From: Algimonas ampicilliniresistens
Lineage (GTDB): Bacteria; Pseudomonadota; Alphaproteobacteria; Caulobacterales; Maricaulaceae
Length of the DNA: 64,000 nt
Assembly (NCBI RefSeq): GCF_030159955.1
Contig: NZ_BSNK01000001.1
Coordinates: 496,001-560,000 of the forward strand
Reading direction: 5' to 3'
Shown piece after piece: positions 2 through 8,324 of the stretch (its first letter is position 1; each line of letters starts with the position of its first letter). The position numbers were made by a program, and so were the translations under genes. The notes under the pieces were generated by a model. It was not told the origin of the DNA and made no database searches. It worked only from the letters and a program-made list of their open reading frames with translations.

Positions 2-1447
2 GAAACCCGGGACTTCTCAGACGCTTCCCAAGAGGGTGTCGCGAGGCTCCTATCCTGTTTCGAAGGCTTTGAACCGCATGTTCCGCCCTGGCGGGCGCTA
101 GCGACACTCTATCTCGACAGGACCCGACTTGGCGCACAGCTCGGATTGGCAGCGCGTGAGGGTGAAGCGAACCCAGCGATTGCGATGTGGCAATTGCAAA
201 ATTTCTTTCGCAATGATTTTGCACGCGGGGAGGGGTATCCAATCCATGAGCTGCTCACGCGCATCCGAAAGCTTGTCATGCTCTCAGATGAGCGCGAGCT
301 CAGACACCTGCCAGAGGCAGCGCAAACGCTTGATGCGGTCCGATTGCTCACCGTTCATGGCAGCAAGGGACTTGAGTTTCCGGTTCTGCACCTACCTTCG
401 CTGACGCGCGGCTCTTTAAACCGCTCAGCCAATCAGAGCCGGGGCCTCCCACCACCCGATGGTCTCATCGCTGGGCCTGTCTTTCGAGGTCGAGATGCCT
501 CGCATGCGGGGCATGAAGATGAGCAACACTGTCTCTTTTTCGTTGGCTTATCACGCGCAGAAGACCAGCTTTACCTCTATTCGCCCCATACAAGCCGTAG
601 CAAACCGTCTCCATTTCTCGACGATATTGCGGCAACCGTTACATGTGAAACCCCGCTTTCGGAGCCTCCAATACTGGCGGAGCAGGAAGAAGCGTTTGAA
701 CTCAGTCTCGACGGCAGGCCGCGCCTCTCCCCCTCACAGCTCGCACTTTATCAAAAATGTCCCCGGCGGTTTCTATTCGCCTATGTGCTTGGTATTGGCG
801 GCCGACGGATGGAAACCCCTCCCATGCAAATGCACCGGGCTGTCCAGGTCGTCATCGATCAGTTGCTCGCCCACCTGAACGACGTACTGAGCCCCGCGGA
901 ATTGACCGATATTGTCGATCAAGCCTGGGAAGAGCATGGGCCGGTCGAGCATGGCTATGCGTCGAAATATCGGACCATCGCCGACACTCTGATCGCCTTC
1001 TTGCACTCAATCCGCACGGGGGAAACGCGCAGGCCCCCTCAGACACGCGAAGTGTCACTCGAACATGCCGACATTGTCGTGACAGCCCACGAAGAAATTG
1101 ACGGCGGTGCGCACACAATCTTCCGCCGCATTAAAACCGGACGCAGGACCAGTCAGGCCCTCGAAGGTCTCGATGCGGCAGCCTTTCAGATGGCCGTCGC
1201 TGATCATGGTCATGTCGAATTTGTCTACCTCACCGGAGAAACACGGGAGATGGTGGCCCTGTCGAAACAAAAAATCTCCAACAGGGGAAAGAAAATCGAG
1301 GCGGCGACCAAAGCCTTATCGCTTGGGCAATTCCCCCCAGATCGGGGGCGTCAATGTGCCAGTTGCCCATTCTTTTTCAACTGTACACCCCCGCCAAGTG
1401 GGCACCTTCGAAAAAAAATCGGCGAGCGCTTACCGGTTTCCTCCTAG
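2..1447 (+). CDS. UvrD/AddA-like helicase C-terminus fused to PD-(D/E)XK-like Fe-S nuclease domain (5' partial)
   Basis: The frame is open from base 2, so the N-terminal ATPase part lies upstream of the window. The visible 481 residues start inside the second helicase lobe. UvrD motif V appears as VRLLTVHGSKGLEFPVLHL and motif VI as FFVGLSRAEDQLYLY. A RecB/AddB-type nuclease region follows, with four cysteines spaced as in the iron-sulphur subclass: one in YQKCPRRF and three in CASCPFFFNC near the C-terminus. The usual catalytic D-x-K segment (typically hDyKTG) reads FRRIKTGR, so Lys is kept but the Asp looks replaced by Arg. Cleavage activity is therefore uncertain. Family proteins unwind and process DNA in repair or defence. 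The Ubl-E2 gene starts 67 bp downstream on the same strand, so co-transcription is plausible but not proven. Confidence 0.85.
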   Translation, partial: ETRDFSDASQEGVARLLSCFEGFEPHVPPWRALATLYLDRTRLGAQLGLAAREGEANPAIAMWQLQNFFRNDFARGEGYPIHELLTRIRKLVMLSDERELRHLPEAAQTLDAVRLLTVHGSKGLEFPVLHLPSLTRGSLNRSANQSRGLPPPDGLIAGPVFRGRDASHAGHEDEQHCLFFVGLSRAEDQLYLYSPHTSRSKPSPFLDDIAATVTCETPLSEPPILAEQEEAFELSLDGRPRLSPSQLALYQKCPRRFLFAYVLGIGGRRMETPPMQMHRAVQVVIDQLLAHLNDVLSPAELTDIVDQAWEEHGPVEHGYASKYRTIADTLIAFLHSIRTGETRRPPQTREVSLEHADIVVTAHEEIDGGAHTIFRRIKTGRRTSQALEGLDAAAFQMAVADHGHVEFVYLTGETREMVALSKQKISNRGKKIEAATKALSLGQFPPDRGRQCASCPFFFNCTPPPSGHLRKKIGERLPVSS

Positions 1448-1514
1448 GCTGACGATTGTCCTTGTGAACACGCTGGCAATGGGCCGGCGACACAGACCTA
1501 GAAGGACAAAAATC

Positions 1515-2369
1515 ATGACGGCAACCGCCCAAACATCCCAATTCAAAGTCAGGATCGCTGATACGACGCTCAAATTTCGATCCTATACCATTGACGACCC
1601 GAAGCCGCTTGGACGGCAGCTGATCGAAGCCGTTGGAGGCCATCCTGTCGAGGAACATGTGGCCTTTGCCATTCTTCCCAATGGCGATTTCGAAGACATT
1701 CGGCTCGACGAGGGCTTTGACCTCAGAGGTCGCGGGGTCGAGAAGGTCCTCGTGGCCCGCTCGGACCGGAGTTTCCGGCTGAAAGTCGATGACGCCGACG
1801 TCGAGTGGCCCCATGCCTGTATTAGTGGGTTCGTCCTGCGCAAGCTTGCCAAGCTGGCGGAAAACTACTCCCTTTGGCAGGAACGCCCAGGCCAGCATGA
1901 CCGAAAGATTGAGAATGACGATATCATCAACCTGGATGAACCGGGCGTTGAACGGTTCATTTCTCTGATCGATCAGACCACGGAGGGCGACGCTCTACCC
2001 TCAGCTGACCAAGGCTTTCTGTCTGAGCACGGATACGCTTACGAGGTCATCGTGGAAGGCGGGCAGACGGGTATCGTGTTGAAGGGGCTCCTTCTGCCAG
2101 AGGGGAAATTCAACCATGAGACAGCAGATATTCTTATCCTGCTGCCCAGTGGCTACCCCGACTGTCCGCCCGACATGTTTTACGCATATCCGAAGCTGAC
2201 TCTCGGTGAAACGGGCCAGGATCCCAAAGCGTGTACTGTGCAACATAATTTCGGGGGGCGGAGGTGGCAGCGCTGGTCGCGTCACAACCGAAATTGGCGT
2301 CCGGGACGGGATGGGCTTCGCACCATGATCGCCCGCGTCCAGACCGCTTTGACCGAGGCGCGCGCGTGA
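1515..2369 (+). CDS. Fused ubiquitin-like (two beta-grasp domains) and family-E E2-like protein
   Basis: The 284-residue protein has three apparent parts. Residues about 8-85 and 86-155 look like tandem multiubiquitin-type beta-grasp domains; each begins with a short strand (FKVRI; FRLKV) and ends near a hydrophobic L..V/F strand. Residues about 160-284 match the prokaryotic E2 family E pattern: LILLPSGYPDCPPDMFY (208-223), then WQRWSRH (251-257) and WRPGRDGL (261-268). Cys240, in ACTVQHNFGG, is the best candidate acceptor and Cys217 a second. No terminal or internal Gly-Gly follows either Ubl, so how the Ubl would be activated or released is unclear. ATG 1515 was chosen because the upstream frame is not protein-like. 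The next gene starts on the stop codon (GTGA) or 6 bp after it. Family known from comparative genomics; the role here is inferred. Confidence 0.8.
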   Translation: MTATAQTSQFKVRIADTTLKFRSYTIDDPKPLGRQLIEAVGGHPVEEHVAFAILPNGDFEDIRLDEGFDLRGRGVEKVLVARSDRSFRLKVDDADVEWPHACISGFVLRKLAKLAENYSLWQERPGQHDRKIENDDIINLDEPGVERFISLIDQTTEGDALPSADQGFLSEHGYAYEVIVEGGQTGIVLKGLLLPEGKFNHETADILILLPSGYPDCPPDMFYAYPKLTLGETGQDPKACTVQHNFGGRRWQRWSRHNRNWRPGRDGLRTMIARVQTALTEARA

Positions 2370-2374
2370 CCCCA

Positions 2375-3757
2375 ATGCGCGACCTCATTCTCCAAAACCC
2401 CCATGAGGCTTCGATCCGCGCCCTTCTGAAAGATGGGCAAGGATCGGAGCGAGCCGCCTACATGTTGTTCGGATTGGCTGATATCGAAAGCGATCCTTGG
2501 ACGCTGCAACCTCGAACCCGTTATGTTTCACACGATTTCCAAACGATTGAACCAGACGCGATGATTTCAGCGTCTGAGCGTCATATCACATGGCAGACGG
2601 ATGGCTTCATGAAACTCCTTGGCGAGGCCAAGTCTTCAGGAATGGTTCCTGCTTTGGTCCATACACACCCATCCGGCTTGGCCCGGTTTTCTGATCAGGA
2701 TGATCGCAATGAAGCAGAGTTAGCGAGAACCGCAGCACTGAAAGGCGTGGCCGGTCTCATCAGTATTGTCATCGCGGGGGATGGCACGATCGCAGCCCGT
2801 CTATGGACAGATCAAAAGACCTTCGTCGATATGCCACGGATCCTGAGTTCCGGGCCGAGACTTGGGCTGGCTGGAGAAAACGGTAAAGCGCAAAGGTATC
2901 AGGATCGACAAATCCGCTTGTTCGGTGAAGCGGCGTCTCAACAAGCCTCTGCCTTTCGTTGTGCCATTGCTGGGTGTGGAGCAACCGGGAGCGCTGTCCT
3001 GCCACTACTTCTTCGTCTTGGCGTCGAGAACATTGTCATGTTCGACCGAGATATAGTCGAAGACACAAACCTCAATCGCTTGCATGGCGCGAGGCGTGAG
3101 GATGTCACTGCAGGGCTTTCCAAAATCGCTATTCATGAGCGAACGGTGAGGGATATTGGGCTCGGTACAAAATTTGTCGGAATTGAAAGCTGGGCGGGTG
3201 ATCCAGAGACGTGGGACGCGCTCAAATCATGTGATGTAATTTTCTGCTGCACGGATGATCATGCGGGGCGACTGTTTTTGAATCGATTTTCCCGCTTCTA
3301 CGGAATTCCTATAATTGATGTCGGACTGGCGATGCAGCGTCGTGGACAGGGCTATGATTTGTTTGCACGGGTGACAACGCTCGTCGCCGGACATCCGTGT
3401 CTTGTATGTGCCGGCCATATTGATGTCGGACTCGCGGCTGAGCAAGCCCTGAAAAGACGCGATCCGGATGCCCATGCGCGATTGAAGGAGGAGGCCTATG
3501 TTCTAGGAGAAGGGGATCCGTCCCCGGCGGTTGTCACATTTACAACGGAAGCCGCGTCAATGGCCGTAAATGAATGGCTGTCAGGACTAACCGGATTTGC
3601 GGGCTCATCCGGAATGCTACCTAGCAGGACGCGGCGATTTCACGCCCGAGATGATCGGACGAGCTCAGTTTCGGCACAACCCGACTGTTCCCTTTGCCAA
3701 GCCCCCGAGACGCTCGGTCGTGGCGATATGGTCCCCTTCCTTGATAGGATTGCGTAA
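2375..3757 (+). CDS. JAB metallopeptidase - ThiF/E1 adenylating enzyme fusion
   Basis: The 460-residue protein joins two ubiquitin-pathway activities. The N-terminal JAB/JAMM domain has Glu25 and the zinc motif HTHP at 96-99, followed by Ser106 and Asp109 (HxHP-x7-SxxD spacing). From about 193 a ThiF/MoeB-like Rossmann domain shows the nucleotide loop GCGATG (200-205), FDRDIVEDTNLNR (223-235) and CCTDDH (291-296). Paired CxxC motifs at 342/345 and 438/441 probably hold zinc. By family knowledge the E1 part adenylates a Ubl C-terminus and the JAB part processes or removes the Ubl. No cysteine is evident in the usual crossover region (about 380-405), so it may only adenylate, or use a non-canonical cysteine. 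An in-frame GTG at 2366 overlaps the previous stop (GTGA) and is an alternative start. Confidence 0.85.
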   Translation: MRDLILQNPHEASIRALLKDGQGSERAAYMLFGLADIESDPWTLQPRTRYVSHDFQTIEPDAMISASERHITWQTDGFMKLLGEAKSSGMVPALVHTHPSGLARFSDQDDRNEAELARTAALKGVAGLISIVIAGDGTIAARLWTDQKTFVDMPRILSSGPRLGLAGENGKAQRYQDRQIRLFGEAASQQASAFRCAIAGCGATGSAVLPLLLRLGVENIVMFDRDIVEDTNLNRLHGARREDVTAGLSKIAIHERTVRDIGLGTKFVGIESWAGDPETWDALKSCDVIFCCTDDHAGRLFLNRFSRFYGIPIIDVGLAMQRRGQGYDLFARVTTLVAGHPCLVCAGHIDVGLAAEQALKRRDPDAHARLKEEAYVLGEGDPSPAVVTFTTEAASMAVNEWLSGLTGFAGSSGMLPSRTRRFHARDDRTSSVSAQPDCSLCQAPETLGRGDMVPFLDRIA

Positions 3758-3758
3758 G

Positions 3759-4130
3759 ATGAGACAGTTTTTGGCGAGATTACTTCGACAGTTTGGATCG
3801 CTTGATTTTGAGCTGCTGAGCCAAAGCCATCCGACTTTCCCTGACGAAATTGAGGACTATCAGATTACGATCGTCAAGAACGGCGGCGTCGAAAAATGGG
3901 CTTGCTTTTCGTGCCCTGGAGGCTGCGGGGAACGGATCGACCTCTCACTCAATCCAAACCGCCGCCCGCGATGGACCATCAGCTGGGATTTTTGGACCCG
4001 CCCTACAATCAAGCCATCCGTGCATCAAAAAAACGAATGTGGATGCCATTTTTGGGTTCGCAACGGGCGTGTTGACTGGTGCAAGGGGGGCAGGCCGAAC
4101 AAAAGAAGCAGACTGAACCAACGACTATAA
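3759..4130 (+). CDS. DUF6527 family protein of the Ubl operon
   Basis: This 123-residue protein begins one base after the stop of the JAB-E1 gene. It carries a compact Cys/His set: Cys49, Cys52 and Cys56 in CFSCPGGCGERIDLSLN, the RPRW segment, KPSVHQ, and a C-terminal CGCHFWVRNGRVDWC. This layout is the DUF6527 pattern as I remember it; members recur beside bacterial E1/E2/JAB genes. I do not state a biochemical function. A zinc-dependent structural role, or a protease or deconjugating role, are both possible. The immediate coupling to the E1-JAB gene argues that it acts in the same pathway. The start was taken as the ATG next to the previous stop; an upstream in-frame extension would overlap the E1 gene. 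Confidence 0.75.
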   Translation: MRQFLARLLRQFGSLDFELLSQSHPTFPDEIEDYQITIVKNGGVEKWACFSCPGGCGERIDLSLNPNRRPRWTISWDFWTRPTIKPSVHQKNECGCHFWVRNGRVDWCKGGRPNKRSRLNQRL

Positions 4131-4148
4131 GGTGTAACCCAAGGGAAA

Positions 4149-4691
4149 ATGAGAGAAACGAGACACCTCCAAACTCAATTGAACATAGAGGCAACGAGCG
4201 GCACAGATGCGCCTCACGTCAAACTAGTATCGCCTAACCTTAAGGAACGACCGCCAGCACGCTCTGACGTGCTTGACTGGATGCGTCCAGATTCCTGGTT
4301 GCCGAAGCTGCCTGGGCTGATCGGAGATGTGGTCACAGATAAGGTTATTGATGCGGTGATCGCGGACCCACCTGACTACATCGTTTCGGATGACCTCACT
4401 TGGTTGAACCGATTGATATCGAAGGATGCCGATCTGAAGTCTCTCATGACAGAGAGATTACGAAATTGCTATCGCGCCTTTCGAACATGTCACGCTTCTC
4501 GGACGACTGACGTCGATAGTTTTTACAGTAAAGGTATCCGCAAGCTGGACAGATCAGATGCGACACACGCATTGAGGGCTCTCCTGAAGGAAAGACCAGA
4601 GATCCCAAATGATGAGGATCGTTTCCAACACGCATTAGATGATGTCGGATTTGATCTTCGTGAAGATCGGGTCTTCTTTGCCGCAAACTAG
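4149..4691 (+). CDS. Hypothetical protein, Ubl operon, orphan 1
   Basis: I do not recognise this 180-residue soluble protein. It starts 18 bp after the DUF6527 gene behind an AAGGGA ribosome site. It has no signal peptide, membrane segment or metal motif. The middle (about residues 55-110) looks helical and acidic/hydrophobic (LIGDVVTDKVIDAV, LTWLNRLISKDADL). The C-terminal third is charged. Its place as the fifth of six co-directional genes suggests that it is a system-specific component, such as a target, adaptor or effector; this is inference only. Confidence 0.6.
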   Translation: MRETRHLQTQLNIEATSGTDAPHVKLVSPNLKERPPARSDVLDWMRPDSWLPKLPGLIGDVVTDKVIDAVIADPPDYIVSDDLTWLNRLISKDADLKSLMTERLRNCYRAFRTCHASRTTDVDSFYSKGIRKLDRSDATHALRALLKERPEIPNDEDRFQHALDDVGFDLREDRVFFAAN

Positions 4692-4694
4692 ACT

Positions 4695-5051
4695 ATGATC
4701 ATTGAGCATGGGGCTCATTATCTTCTCTATGGCGGGGAACATCAGCTGGCCGTTGCGAGTCGAGTCTGGTCAGCCGGCGTCGCTCGGCGATATCTACGGT
4801 CACGGGGCAAAGCTACAATGTTTATATGCGATGTACCGTTTTCACTCATTAGCGATAGTTGGCTGTCCGAATATGCCGGATCCGCTTTGGCGCGTTGGAT
4901 CGGTGAAAAGCTAACAGAGCCTCAGGTTGATGATTTTGGAGAAGAGTCCATTTGCATTCATGCAGATCTTCCTGCTGAAGCTATTGTCGGACACTATCAC
5001 CCCAGTAAAGTGCGCGACCCATTTTCAGGTTCTGCCTGGACAAAGCCTTAG
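4695..5051 (+). CDS. Hypothetical protein, Ubl operon, orphan 2
   Basis: This 118-residue protein is unrecognised. It begins 3 bp after the stop of orphan 1, so the two genes are probably translated together. Features: a basic stretch ARRYLRSRGKA (30-40), the hydrophobic segment MFICDVPFSLI (42-52), and a histidine-containing tail (GHYHPSKVRDP). No transmembrane helix or known catalytic motif is evident. The pair 4149/4695 has the size and coupling of a toxin-antitoxin or effector-immunity pair, but nothing in the sequence proves that. A gene-free stretch follows it. Confidence 0.55.
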   Translation: MIIEHGAHYLLYGGEHQLAVASRVWSAGVARRYLRSRGKATMFICDVPFSLISDSWLSEYAGSALARWIGEKLTEPQVDDFGEESICIHADLPAEAIVGHYHPSKVRDPFSGSAWTKP

Positions 5052-5434
5052 ATTCATTTCTGTCGGATCCAGCAACCAAACATATTTGTCGATATGCGCT
5101 CTCAATTTGAGACAAATCTGCAGCTGCGTGTGAGGTCCTTGTCTATCTAGGTCGACTAAAGGACTTTGCGGCTTTTGGGGTTAAGCTCACGGAAAATGTA
5201 AAAAGGGGAGCGTTTTCTAAACGAGGAGCAGAAAGAGCCCCAATGAGATGATGCATATAAATACAAATTTCTGTCCATTATGTTGTGTGACCTGAATATC
5301 CAGTTCCAAATGCCTATTCTACTAAACACTGGACTTCATCCTAAAAGGAAGCGGTAGTGTGATCACGGCCCTTACCATGGGCCTTGTCTCAGTAGTGGCG
5401 CGCATCGGGCGCGCTGATAACTGGAGACATACTC
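5052..5434. other. Intergenic stretch between the Ubl operon and the recombinase module
   Basis: About 380 bp without a convincing gene on either strand. The composition is more AT-rich than the flanks. I see no tRNA, no strong terminator hairpin and no clear promoter pair. The ribosome site CTGGAGAC just before 5435 belongs to the DUF3489 gene. This could hold the end of one transcription unit and the start of another. Confidence 0.5.
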
Positions 5435-5695
5435 ATGACACCCAATCCCACCAAACAATCCTCCTCTGAAACTGCAGCGCTCGCACCCCCTCGTGAGGGC
5501 ACCAAACAAGCCAAGCTTGTCGGCTTGCTGTCCCGCAAAAGCGGCGTGACTCTCGAGAAAGCCGCGGAGGCCTTAGGCTGGCAGACGCACACAACCAGCG
5601 CGACAATGACCGGCCTGCGCAAACGTGGCTACGTGATCGATCGAGAACCTCGTGACGGAAAGCCGAGCCTGTACCGCATCAAGCCGGACGCCTAG
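5435..5695 (+). CDS. DUF3489 family small DNA-binding-like protein
   Basis: The 86-residue protein has the DUF3489 layout: a disordered, Ser/Thr-rich first 25 residues, then a winged-helix-like core (KQAKLVGLLSRKSGVTLEKA, LGWQTHTTSATMTGLRKRGY) ending in a beta-wing with RDGKPSLYRI. Family function is not established; the core looks like a transcription-factor helix-turn-helix. It is preceded by CTGGAGAC and is followed after 2 bp by the DUF2924 gene. The trio with a serine recombinase is a familiar mobile arrangement in Alphaproteobacteria, so a role in recombinase control or directionality is plausible but inferred. Confidence 0.85.
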   Translation: MTPNPTKQSSSETAALAPPREGTKQAKLVGLLSRKSGVTLEKAAEALGWQTHTTSATMTGLRKRGYVIDREPRDGKPSLYRIKPDA

Positions 5696-5697
5696 CG

Positions 5698-6153
5698 ATG
5701 AACGCGTCATCCAAGGCCGAGCAGGAGCCAGCCTTCTCTGCGCTTAAGGATCTCTCGCGCGAACACCTGCTTGTCCTGTGGCATCGCTACTATGAGACCC
5801 CGCCCTTCAAAGGCGCTCGCAAGAGCACTCTGATTCGAGGGATCAGCTACGCTCGACAAGCGAACGCGTATGGAGGCCTCAAGGCGATGACCAAGCGGAA
5901 GCTTCTCAAAATTGCCAAAGAGCTGACCGCTGCAGCTCTGACAAAACCCGTCGCAACAGCGAATCCTCCGCCGCCTAAGATCCAACCCGGAACCCAACTG
6001 GTCCGAGAGTGGAACGGCAAGACTTACGCTGTCCTCTGCACTGATCAGGGCTTTGTGATGAATGGAGTCACCTACGGGTCGCTCTCTGCAATCGCCAAAG
6101 CCATCACTGGGACGACGTGGTCAGGCCCTCGCTTCTTCGGGGTGAGGGGATAA
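5698..6153 (+). CDS. DUF2924 family protein, partner of the recombinase
   Basis: The 151-residue protein matches DUF2924: an N-terminal helical part containing LSREHLLVLWHRYYETPPF and LIRGISYARQANAYGGLK, a Pro-rich linker near 88-96, and a C-terminal domain with LVREWNGKTYAVLCTDQGF, YGSLSAIAKAITGTTWSGPRFFG. The C-terminal WSGPRFFG box is diagnostic of the family. The function is unknown; these proteins are nearly always encoded next to a large serine recombinase, as here (recombinase ATG 18 bp downstream). It is a likely accessory or directionality factor by context. ATG 5698 follows the DUF3489 stop by 2 bp. Confidence 0.88.
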   Translation: MNASSKAEQEPAFSALKDLSREHLLVLWHRYYETPPFKGARKSTLIRGISYARQANAYGGLKAMTKRKLLKIAKELTAAALTKPVATANPPPPKIQPGTQLVREWNGKTYAVLCTDQGFVMNGVTYGSLSAIAKAITGTTWSGPRFFGVRG

Positions 6154-6171
6154 ACTGGAGGGGGACAGATA

Positions 6172-7896
6172 ATGACGACTTCAGCCCCAACGACTCTTCG
6201 ATGCGCGGTCTATACCCGCAAGTCTCATGAGGAGGGTCTAGACCAAGACTTCAACTCCCTCGATGCACAAACGGAAGCCTGTCGGGCCTATATCCTGTCT
6301 CAAGCTGGCTTGGGCTGGCAGCTAAGGGACGGGGAGTATAGCGATGCCGGGATCTCGGGTGGCCATATGGATCGACAGGGGTTGCAGCGTCTCATTTCGG
6401 ATATTGAAGCCGGGCTGATTGATGTGGTGGTCGTTTATAAGGTGGATCGCCTCACAAGATCTCTGTCTGACTTCTCTCGGCTGGTGGAGACCTTCGACCA
6501 GCATCAAGTGTCGTTCGTATCTGTGACTCAAGCCTTCAACACGACCACATCCATGGGACGACTGACACTCAATGTGCTGCTCTCCTTCGCTCAGTTCGAA
6601 CGAGAGGTCACAGCGGAGCGGATCCGAGACAAGATCGCGGCCTCAAAGGCCAAAGGCATCTGGATGGGAGGCCTAGTCCCGCTGGGGTATCGGAGTAAGA
6701 ACAGAAAGCTCATCATTGAAGAAAGGGGAGAAGACCGCCCAGACGGGTGGGGGGAGGCCGAGACCGTCAGAGCCATCTTCTCCCTCTACTTACGGCTCAA
6801 GTCCGTCCGACAGGTCAAAGAAGCGCTCGATAGGGAAGGCGCGCTCTCAAAAAGACGCGTGACAAAGACAGGGAAAGTCTCAGGCGGCAAGCCTTTCTTC
6901 CGAGGGCACATCTACACCATTCTGAAGAACCCGATCTATGTCGGGAAGATCGTTCATAAAGGCGAGGTCTATGACGGCGAGCATGATGCCATCATTGACC
7001 AAGAGACTTGGGACCGTACCCAGGCGCTGCTTAGAGAGAATGCACCCAATCGAATGAGAAGACGCTACACCAAGACCACAGCCCTGCTAGCTGGACTGCT
7101 TGAAGATGCAGATGGGCACCCCTTAGTTCCTCAGGCCTGCACGACAAGAGGGGTGAAGTATCATTACTATGTCAGTCGGAGGCTGAAGACCGGAGATGTG
7201 GACAGCGGGTGGAGACTCAGACGAGACACGATCGAATCGACTGTCTTGACGATCCTGAAGGGTCACTTCGCTGACGACCTGAAACTTTTTCTACTTCTAA
7301 GGCTGGATGAGATCGACGTCACAACCCGGCAAACCATCATGCACGCATCAAAGCTCCTAGCAGCCGCCTTAGCAAAACCGACCCAAGAGTTGATGCATCA
7401 GCTCGTCGAACGAATCGTGCTGGAGGCTAACAGCGTGACCATACAGCTCTCGAAAGACGGTCTACTCTTCCACCTACCAATTGATGAAGAACCAGAGAGT
7501 TGGACACACTCCAACCTCTTGATCCAAGAGGACATCGTCCTGAGGAGGCGGGGACAAGAGACGAAGCTCGTTCTAGGCGCAAAAGACGAACCCGCATTTA
7601 ATCCTGACGAGGCTCTGATCCATTTGATCGCCAGGGCGACGCTACTCCGGGAGCAGCTAGAGTCAGGTGAGATCACATCGCTATCGGAGTTCGCGGAAGT
7701 TCAAGGCCTCGACCCCAGCAACATGAACAAGCTCGTTCCGCTCGGATATCTGGCACCCAGCATTCTCGACGAAATTCTCGAAGGTCGCCAGCCAGAGCAT
7801 ATGTCGAGTCGGTCCTTGCAGCGCATGACCGATCTTCCCTTAGAATGGGACGCCCAACGCAATCATCTGGGCATGCACTCTGCATCACCACACTGA
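6172..7896 (+). CDS. Large serine recombinase (site-specific integrase)
   Basis: The 574-residue protein has an N-terminal resolvase/invertase catalytic domain with the nucleophile in VYTRKS (Ser18), DAGISGG, and the arginine-containing VVYKVDRLTRSLSDF. A recombinase domain follows (FRGHIYTILKNPIYVGKI, about 242-259). The usual zinc-ribbon cysteines are absent: the corresponding stretch LLAGLLEDADGHPL has none, a variant common in alphaproteobacterial members. The C-terminal half is helical and probably binds DNA. It should catalyse integration or excision of the surrounding island via attP/attB recombination. It is preceded by a ribosome site GGAGGGGG and is the last island gene; tRNA-Ala lies 170 bp beyond it. 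Confidence 0.92.
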   Translation: MTTSAPTTLRCAVYTRKSHEEGLDQDFNSLDAQTEACRAYILSQAGLGWQLRDGEYSDAGISGGHMDRQGLQRLISDIEAGLIDVVVVYKVDRLTRSLSDFSRLVETFDQHQVSFVSVTQAFNTTTSMGRLTLNVLLSFAQFEREVTAERIRDKIAASKAKGIWMGGLVPLGYRSKNRKLIIEERGEDRPDGWGEAETVRAIFSLYLRLKSVRQVKEALDREGALSKRRVTKTGKVSGGKPFFRGHIYTILKNPIYVGKIVHKGEVYDGEHDAIIDQETWDRTQALLRENAPNRMRRRYTKTTALLAGLLEDADGHPLVPQACTTRGVKYHYYVSRRLKTGDVDSGWRLRRDTIESTVLTILKGHFADDLKLFLLLRLDEIDVTTRQTIMHASKLLAAALAKPTQELMHQLVERIVLEANSVTIQLSKDGLLFHLPIDEEPESWTHSNLLIQEDIVLRRRGQETKLVLGAKDEPAFNPDEALIHLIARATLLREQLESGEITSLSEFAEVQGLDPSNMNKLVPLGYLAPSILDEILEGRQPEHMSSRSLQRMTDLPLEWDAQRNHLGMHSASPH

Positions 7897-8066
7897 ACCA
7901 ACGGGTCACCAAAACTGCCTTGTAAGACTGTCTCGCGAAATGGTGCTAGAAAGCCAGGTCATGCGAGGTTGGCGGACGTTGGATCCGTCTCGATCTCCGT
8001 TAACTCACTGAAACTACTGTATAGTTCTGGCAAAGCCGAGTTCAGGGTGTTCACAGGGGAGAGGAC

Positions 8067-8142
<76 letters not shown>

Positions 8143-8324
8143 GTCCATTGGCTGTCCGGTGGCACCGGATGGCCGACTGATCGGGTCAGTCCTGTCTATG
8201 CCCAAAGCAACGCCTTGGGCGGCTTGAGGGCGGCGCGTCATAAGACTGCGCCGCGCCGAAGGTCAAGCGAGTTATTGCGACGGCGCGAAGGGAAACTCAC
8301 CCTCACGCGCTGACCCGGTGTATC

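Follow-up and report, generated by a model that had tools for sequence, protein, structure and literature searches.

The gene at 1515-2369 of the window (here, the whole 64,000-nucleotide stretch of Algimonas ampicilliniresistens contig NZ_BSNK01000001.1, positions 496,001 to 560,000) belongs to a Bub operon, operon type 6e, and encodes its fused BubA-BubB chain. In the reading that best explains the data, to which we give a probability of roughly three in four, this chain is a precursor that is cut between its ubiquitin-like (Ubl) and E2-like parts, and the operon is controlled by a sigma/peptidase module encoded upstream. The Ubl-E2 fusion by itself is not new, this kind having been on record since 2006. 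New and testable here would be a putative TTEG|Asp cutting site and a putative sigma/peptidase-helicase control module with its motif, both proposed from sequence. The features discussed below are listed in Table 1.

Table 1. Features of the bub locus and of the genes upstream (window positions unless marked as contig positions)
Feature	Position	Strand	Remarks
Sigma-70-like gene, region 4, 266 aa	contig 492712-493512	+	PF08281, E 1.6e-7
Small protein, 184 aa	contig 493499-494053	+	no Pfam family at cut-off
Peptidase_M78 (ImmA/IrrE) + UvrD helicase + PD-(D/E)XK protein, 1137 aa	gene starts at contig 494034; C-terminal part 2..1447	+
Promoter-like motif, putative target of the sigma-like protein	1430..1457	+	TTACCGG (1430-1436), spacer, CGATT (1453-1457)
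Fused bubA-bubB gene, 284 aa	1515..2369	+	two Ubl domains and an E2-like domain
Ubl domain 1 (Multi_ubiq)	1563..1760 (contig 497563-497760)	+	PF14452 match
Ubl domain 2 (Multi_ubiq)	1773..1964 (contig 497773-497964)	+	PF14452 match
Codons of T155-T156-E157-G158, putative processing site and Ubl C-terminus	1977..1988	+	cut expected after G158
E2-like domain (Prok-E2_E, BubB-like)	1995..2357	+	without conserved catalytic Cys
JAB-E1 fusion (BubCD-like)	2366..3757	+	probable GTG start overlapping the bubAB stop (GTGA)
DUF6527 protein (PF20137)	3759..4130	+	taken as metal-binding protein Y of operon type 6e

Composition of the operon and comparison with known systems

By sequence or structural model, the chain comprises two beta-grasp Ubls, a joint reading TTEG158|D159, and an E2-fold domain. 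The initial annotation had proposed two Ubls and an E2-like domain in one chain, and this was borne out: the profile search suggested there matched Multi_ubiq (PF14452) twice and Prok-E2_E once, and the fold search returned beta-grasp for the Ubl part and an E2/UBC fold for the C-terminal part. The closest solved structures, found by structure match, are Bub proteins of Citrobacter; one multi-Ubl match, 8u38, carries the depositors' name Ubl-BilA. The E1 and JAB functions expected nearby in the same annotation are indeed encoded by the next gene, in the product of which profile search found a JAB domain joined to an E1-like ThiF domain, with Citrobacter BubCD as the closest solved relative (E 2.4e-25). 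The DUF6527 protein (E 2.5e-24) has residues C52, C56, C94, and H97 in 83-85 of 85 aligned rows and is predicted to bind metal; the literature search returned no paper on this domain. The window therefore combines the parts that define the Bub/6e class, namely tandem Multi_ubiq domains, a Prok-E2_E domain without a conserved cysteine, a JAB-E1 protein, and DUF6527; conjugation by these proteins is predicted. Bub is the later name of operon type 6e.

Type 6e operons, according to the accessible part of the original description, encode a polyUbl with one to three domains; an E2/RWD-like domain without the cysteine, present on the polyUbl chain or as a protein of its own; a JAB-E1 protein; and a metal-binding protein. 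The row for 6e lists the polyUbl-E2 fusion (Iyer, Burroughs and Aravind, 2006; PMC1779556). The fusion, which is restated in the accessible part of a 2024 review (PMC11354881), is therefore not the departure from known systems for which it was initially taken, and it is also found in most of the loci classed below.

The window has the same parts in the same order as the Bub/6e system of Citrobacter (BubA, BubB, and BubCD; PDB 9d59, 9ea4, 9ea5, 9ea8, 9eae, and 9eav), a comparison based on PDB names, titles, and alignments. The Citrobacter chain seems to be a BubA-BubB fusion as well. Its BubA chains in the PDB stop at ...DVNNG, one of them being labelled BubA 155-229, and its BubB chain is numbered 238-361, as though continuing from BubA; the single 362-aa chain encoded by a plasmid gene of Citrobacter freundii has an NNG that closes at residue 229. 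The fused form thus seems to have been worked on already, split at the equivalent of G158|D159, with the end of BubA at the equivalent Gly being a construct boundary, not the outcome of a cleavage assay. The window differs from Citrobacter in having two Ubls instead of three, a TTEG instead of a VNNG joint, and other control genes. Gong 2025 and Ye 2026 are cited as Bub papers in the accessible part of PMC13373217.

Bil operons likewise contain Ubl, E2-like, E1, and JAB proteins, but as four separate genes (BilA Ubl, BilB E2, BilC JAB, and BilD E1), whereas in the window Ubl and E2 share one ORF and JAB and E1 another. The initial annotation was right about this difference, and membership in Bil was ruled out by the gene architecture, the best structural matches being Bub proteins. 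In Bil, the BilC JAB exposes the C-terminal Gly of BilA, and BilD carries a conserved Cys domain; in UBA52 and its kin, the Ubl is made at the N-terminus of a longer chain and released by a cut after Gly (both from the accessible part of PMC11354881). The window gene resembles these ubiquitin-ribosomal protein genes in its N-terminal Ubl part, with a cut after Gly proposed, and differs from them in that the partner is the E2-like protein of the pathway itself.

The Ubl|E2 joint and the E2-like domain

Relatives were collected by a pattern scan of a genome collection in which the best 80 of 365 E2-domain relatives were kept, so the sample leans to the window's own kin. Together with nine plasmid loci bearing the E2 domain and the window, and with L035 and L067 dropped as duplicates, 88 dereplicated E2-bearing loci were classed. 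Ubl and E2 are fused in 69 and separate in 19, L071 being counted as separate through a frame break. This locus, from Pseudomonas, has the helicase and also the motif, but its Ubl and E2 parts (1720-2736) are not in the same frame; a frame break is likely. Among 72,556 plasmid records, 178 match the protein, and 59 of these cover at least 80% of the chain in one place. The E2 model is rare in the window's class, where it exceeded the cut-off in 3 genomes out of 385, including the window's own. On a quick tree (127 columns, many open forks), the fused and separate states require at least six changes, two of which are forced by well-supported branches.

The evidence for a cut comes from the C-termini of stand-alone BubA proteins. 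Among those with unbroken frames (n=18; L071 was left out because of its frame break), 12 end exactly in TTEG, nine of them cyanobacterial, 5 end in TTEG plus 2-3 residues, and 1 ends otherwise (L013). TTEG or a close variant stands at the Ubl|E2 joint in 68 of the 69 dereplicated fused chains (TTEG in 61, TTAG in 5, and TVEG and TNAG in 1 each), the exception, L015, having INNG. Within 40 aligned fused chains, G158 is found in all 40, T155 in 39, T156 in 37, and E157 in 34; positions 151, 153, 154, 159, and 160 are variable in the same chains. Residues 151-160 form the least confident inner block of the chain model (mean pLDDT 64). The fused chains thus carry, with a conserved Gly as in a precursor, the motif that ends their unfused homologues. 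Most likely, the JAB domain cuts at this motif. Two loci count against this, L015 with its INNG and L013 with neither TTEG nor INNG, and the conservation of TTEG could instead reflect docking of the E1 in an uncut chain.

A cut at the joint would answer the question of where the Bub modifier ends, since the motif shared by free ends and joints points to G158. The premise of the initial annotation that no Gly-Gly ends either Ubl fails, as the joint bears the end motif of free BubA. Of the two outcomes suggested there, release by a protease stands as the better one; use in cis gained no positive support.

In a sister polyUbl class (L012, L101, L104, L110, L119, and L120), DUF6791 replaces JAB on the E1. 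The polyUbls read in this class (L012, L101, L104, and L110) end in ...QS or ...KS and overlap the E1 gene. Terminal Gly is therefore not universal.

We propose that the fused chain probably works as a precursor, as judged from the joint. The JAB domain of BubCD would cut after Gly158, yielding equal amounts of a two-Ubl modifier with a TTEG-COOH end and of a released E2-like partner. The E1 domain would then adenylate the Gly158 carboxylate, and transfer would proceed without a thioester on an E2 cysteine, the E2-like domain acting as a docking or acid-base partner, for which the conserved Q252, W254, S255, R256, and H257 are candidate residues. The fusion would thus be a precursor and a stoichiometry device, and not a lasting union of substrate with carrier.

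The enzymatic residues of the JAB-E1 protein are well kept. JAMM residues H99, H101, S109, and D112 are each found in 85 of 86 aligned rows and adenylation residues G203, T207, G208, D229, R238, K253, and D297 in all 86. No cysteine lies between C348 and C441 of the window protein, so no crossover-loop cysteine is seen in its E1. Two earlier E1 cysteines, C289 (76 of 86 rows) and C295 (82 of 86), are widely kept and may speak against the proposed mechanism.

Position 240 of the E2-like domain is Ala in 57, Cys in 19, and Thr in 12 of 88 domains (a set that leaves out L065 and takes in L099, unlike the set used for fused and separate states). The rows with Cys form one well-supported clade of 19, the window's, so that a single change on the tree is needed, and the stretch of Citrobacter BubB aligned to this region contains no Cys. 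Cys240 was therefore rejected as an active site of the family, and the idea that it occupies the active pocket, put forward in the initial annotation, found no support; a role specific to the clade is possible. Invariant in the 88 domains are Y214, P215, D220, M221, Q252, W254, S255, R256, H257, W261, and D266, partly by force, as the scan patterns include YP..DMF and QRWSRH; QRWSRH is also present in Citrobacter BubB, which was reached by another route. The domain has the E2/UBC fold of canonical cysteine E2s but not their conserved active-site Cys. With no family-wide Cys, the better guess is that the domain either acts by a route without cysteine or serves in docking. The Bub mechanism reportedly involves an unusual non-cysteine intermediate, as described by Ye et al. 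in 2026.

Three other readings of the chain have to be weighed. The fusion might never be cut and act in cis, with the Ubl pair tethered to its carrier; the single continuous reading frame and the frequency of fused chains in the sample (69 of 88) are consistent with this. E1 chemistry, however, requires a free carboxylate, which Ubl2 does not have in an uncut chain, and the joint retains the C-terminal motif of unfused BubA. Moreover, the repeated changes between fused and separate genes (at least six, two of them firm) suggest equivalent end products, and we regard permanent tethering as improbable. The Ubl part might instead be a scaffold, with BubA forming filaments and the E2-like domain recruiting partners without any conjugation. 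The titles of PDB entries 9d59 and 9d5b name multi-ubiquitin filaments, and the lack of a conserved cysteine in the E2-like domain and of any cysteine in the C348-C441 interval of the window E1 fits such a role, but a pure scaffold needs neither the JAMM nor the adenylation residues that are so widely kept, which makes this reading unlikely too. Least credible is a truly catalytic Cys240 that forms a thioester on the E2 domain in the window's clade alone: although Cys is found in all 19 rows of the clade after one change on the tree, shared descent alone could explain it in such close relatives, and the remaining 69 of 88 domains have Ala or Thr, and the Citrobacter BubB stretch has no Cys. 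The preferred reading of the chain remains that of a cut precursor.

The upstream genes and the promoter-like motif

The sigma-like, small protein, and peptidase-helicase genes lie on the same strand as bubAB and overlap one another. HExxH was found in 60 of 60 peptidase-helicases longer than 900 aa. The small protein has a helical AlphaFold2 model (mean pLDDT 75), and its best PDB match, at E 0.66, does not reach the threshold of E <= 0.001; with no significant structural relative, its role as an inhibitor is a guess. In the proposed mechanism, transcription of bubAB would start behind the promoter-like motif, read by the upstream sigma-like protein. This protein would be restrained until a signal, probably damaged or single-stranded DNA, activates the ImmA-type peptidase on the helicase-nuclease, upon which the peptidase would cut an inhibitor, the small upstream protein being the candidate. 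We consider it somewhat better than an even chance that the peptidase, switched on when the helicase meets damaged or single-stranded DNA, frees a sigma-like factor that reads a dedicated promoter (T-A/T-C-C-G-G ... C-G-A-T-T) at 1430-1457. If real, the module would explain how some Bub and some Bil-like operons are switched on.

Controllers were classed for the 88 loci. The helicase was found in 55 fused loci and 1 separate locus, the sigma-like gene only in 1 fused locus, and CapH/CapP-like genes (HTH and ImmA genes resembling the neighbors of L011, L014, and L016) in 10 fused and 16 separate loci; neither type was found in the available flanking DNA of 5 loci. Ahead of the Ubl gene, the pattern T[ATC]CCG-N15-19-CGA[CT]T was seen in 59 of the 66 module-bearing loci and in 0 of 26 with CapH/CapP-like genes, counts that include near-identical loci and, as the controller state changes three times on the tree, rest on few independent events; the background is 0.026 per 300 bases. 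The motif was also found in 3 of 8 other loci, each of which holds part of the module elsewhere. The seven module loci in which the pattern is missing are L026, L040, L041, L064, L070, L078, and L100, the last having it further up. L105, in which the operon is divergent and the intergenic DNA lacks the motif, is not among the 66.

As the motif was first spotted in the loci counted, a later check on newly fetched genomes matters. When 398 genomes were searched with the peptidase domain alone, 5 matches besides the window's were found, all of them adjoining a polyUbl/Bub operon. These loci (L118-L122), the only ones fetched after the motif had been spotted, have it in 4 of 5 cases, L122 being the exception. 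A stricter form of the motif occurs once in the 3.26 Mb window genome, at 1431-1457, and its reversed control also once. No sigma-70-type site was found at 1300-5100, where 2.6 are expected. As for a sigma-dependent promoter, the bipartite motif goes with the module, the exceptions being L105, L122, and 7 of the 66 loci; its recognition by the sigma-like protein is presumed.

Fourteen plasmid loci with the module were read, 3 of them found through the Ubl search (L007, L008, and L012, all Bub-type) and 11 through a module search, the latter picked to include outliers. Among these 11, L101, L104, L105, and L110 carry Bub/polyUbl operons and L100, L102, L103, L106, and L108 four-gene Bil-like operons; L107 retains only the truncated first gene of a Bil-like operon, and L109 is broken. 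The five complete Bil-like operons, so called from gene order, DUF7665, JAB, and ThiF, with the first protein as a putative Ubl and DUF7665 as a putative E2, have the same sigma/small protein/peptidase-helicase module and the promoter-like motif. In L103 and L108, the first protein ends in ...HRING and is followed by DUF7665, JAB, and ThiF.

The motif precedes the sigma-like gene itself in 3 of 50 loci (L100, L102, and L106, all Bil-like). Autoregulation through the same motif was rejected, as none of the 47 other, non-Bil loci has it there. In L103, L107, and L108, outside the 50, the motif lies 39-216 bases ahead of an annotated LuxR/sigma-like gene that is below the cut-off, so that all six Bil-like loci show it before such a gene. 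Further copies, within the sigma-like gene of L101, L104, L110, L118, L120, and L121, seem to coincide with conserved coding sequence and were not used as evidence.

The sigma and peptidase-helicase genes might also be a separate defense system parked beside Bub, not its controller. Weak GajB and Cas4 profile matches in the helicase-nuclease part are consistent with this, as is L105, which pairs the module with a divergent Bub operon lacking the motif. In the window, however, all these genes run in one direction, with overlaps among the first three; the motif immediately precedes the Ubl gene and is lacking from loci that have CapH/CapP-like genes instead; and a Ubl-type operon or its remnant lies beside the module in 5 of 5 extra genomes and 10 of 11 module-picked plasmid loci. 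An independent defense system is therefore a rather doubtful explanation, and control of bubAB by the module remains the preferred one.

Known controllers of Bub operons are of other kinds. According to the accessible part of PMC13373217, 219 of 544 inspected Bub operons are accompanied by CapW or CapH+CapP and 59 by CapK+CapS, and a wider search gave 231 Bub operons with CapK+CapS; by these counts, part of the 544 has no named controller. As in CapH+CapP, described in the same part of that source, the window has an ImmA/IrrE-type peptidase beside Bub that is expected to act on a transcription regulator. The peptidase of the window is, however, fused to a helicase-nuclease and accompanied by a same-strand sigma-like gene, and the stand-alone HTH repressor and stand-alone peptidase of CapH+CapP were not found there. 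A literature search by titles and abstracts, covering few subscription papers and no preprints, returned no description of the module, which may be undescribed so far.

Genes downstream of the operon

The two ORFs directly after the DUF6527 gene (4149-4691 and 4695-5051) matched no Pfam family over the cut-off and no NCBIfam or PADLOC model at E 0.01. A recombinase-like ORF, named from sequence, lies at 6172-7896 and is adjoined by a tRNA-Ala (8067-8142). A tRNA-bounded island was considered and rejected for want of a boundary: within 122 kb, no part of 7900-8160 longer than 14 bases recurs elsewhere. Together with ORFs at 5435 and 5698, the latter a DUF2924 gene, the predicted content of 5435-8142 suggests a mobile element.
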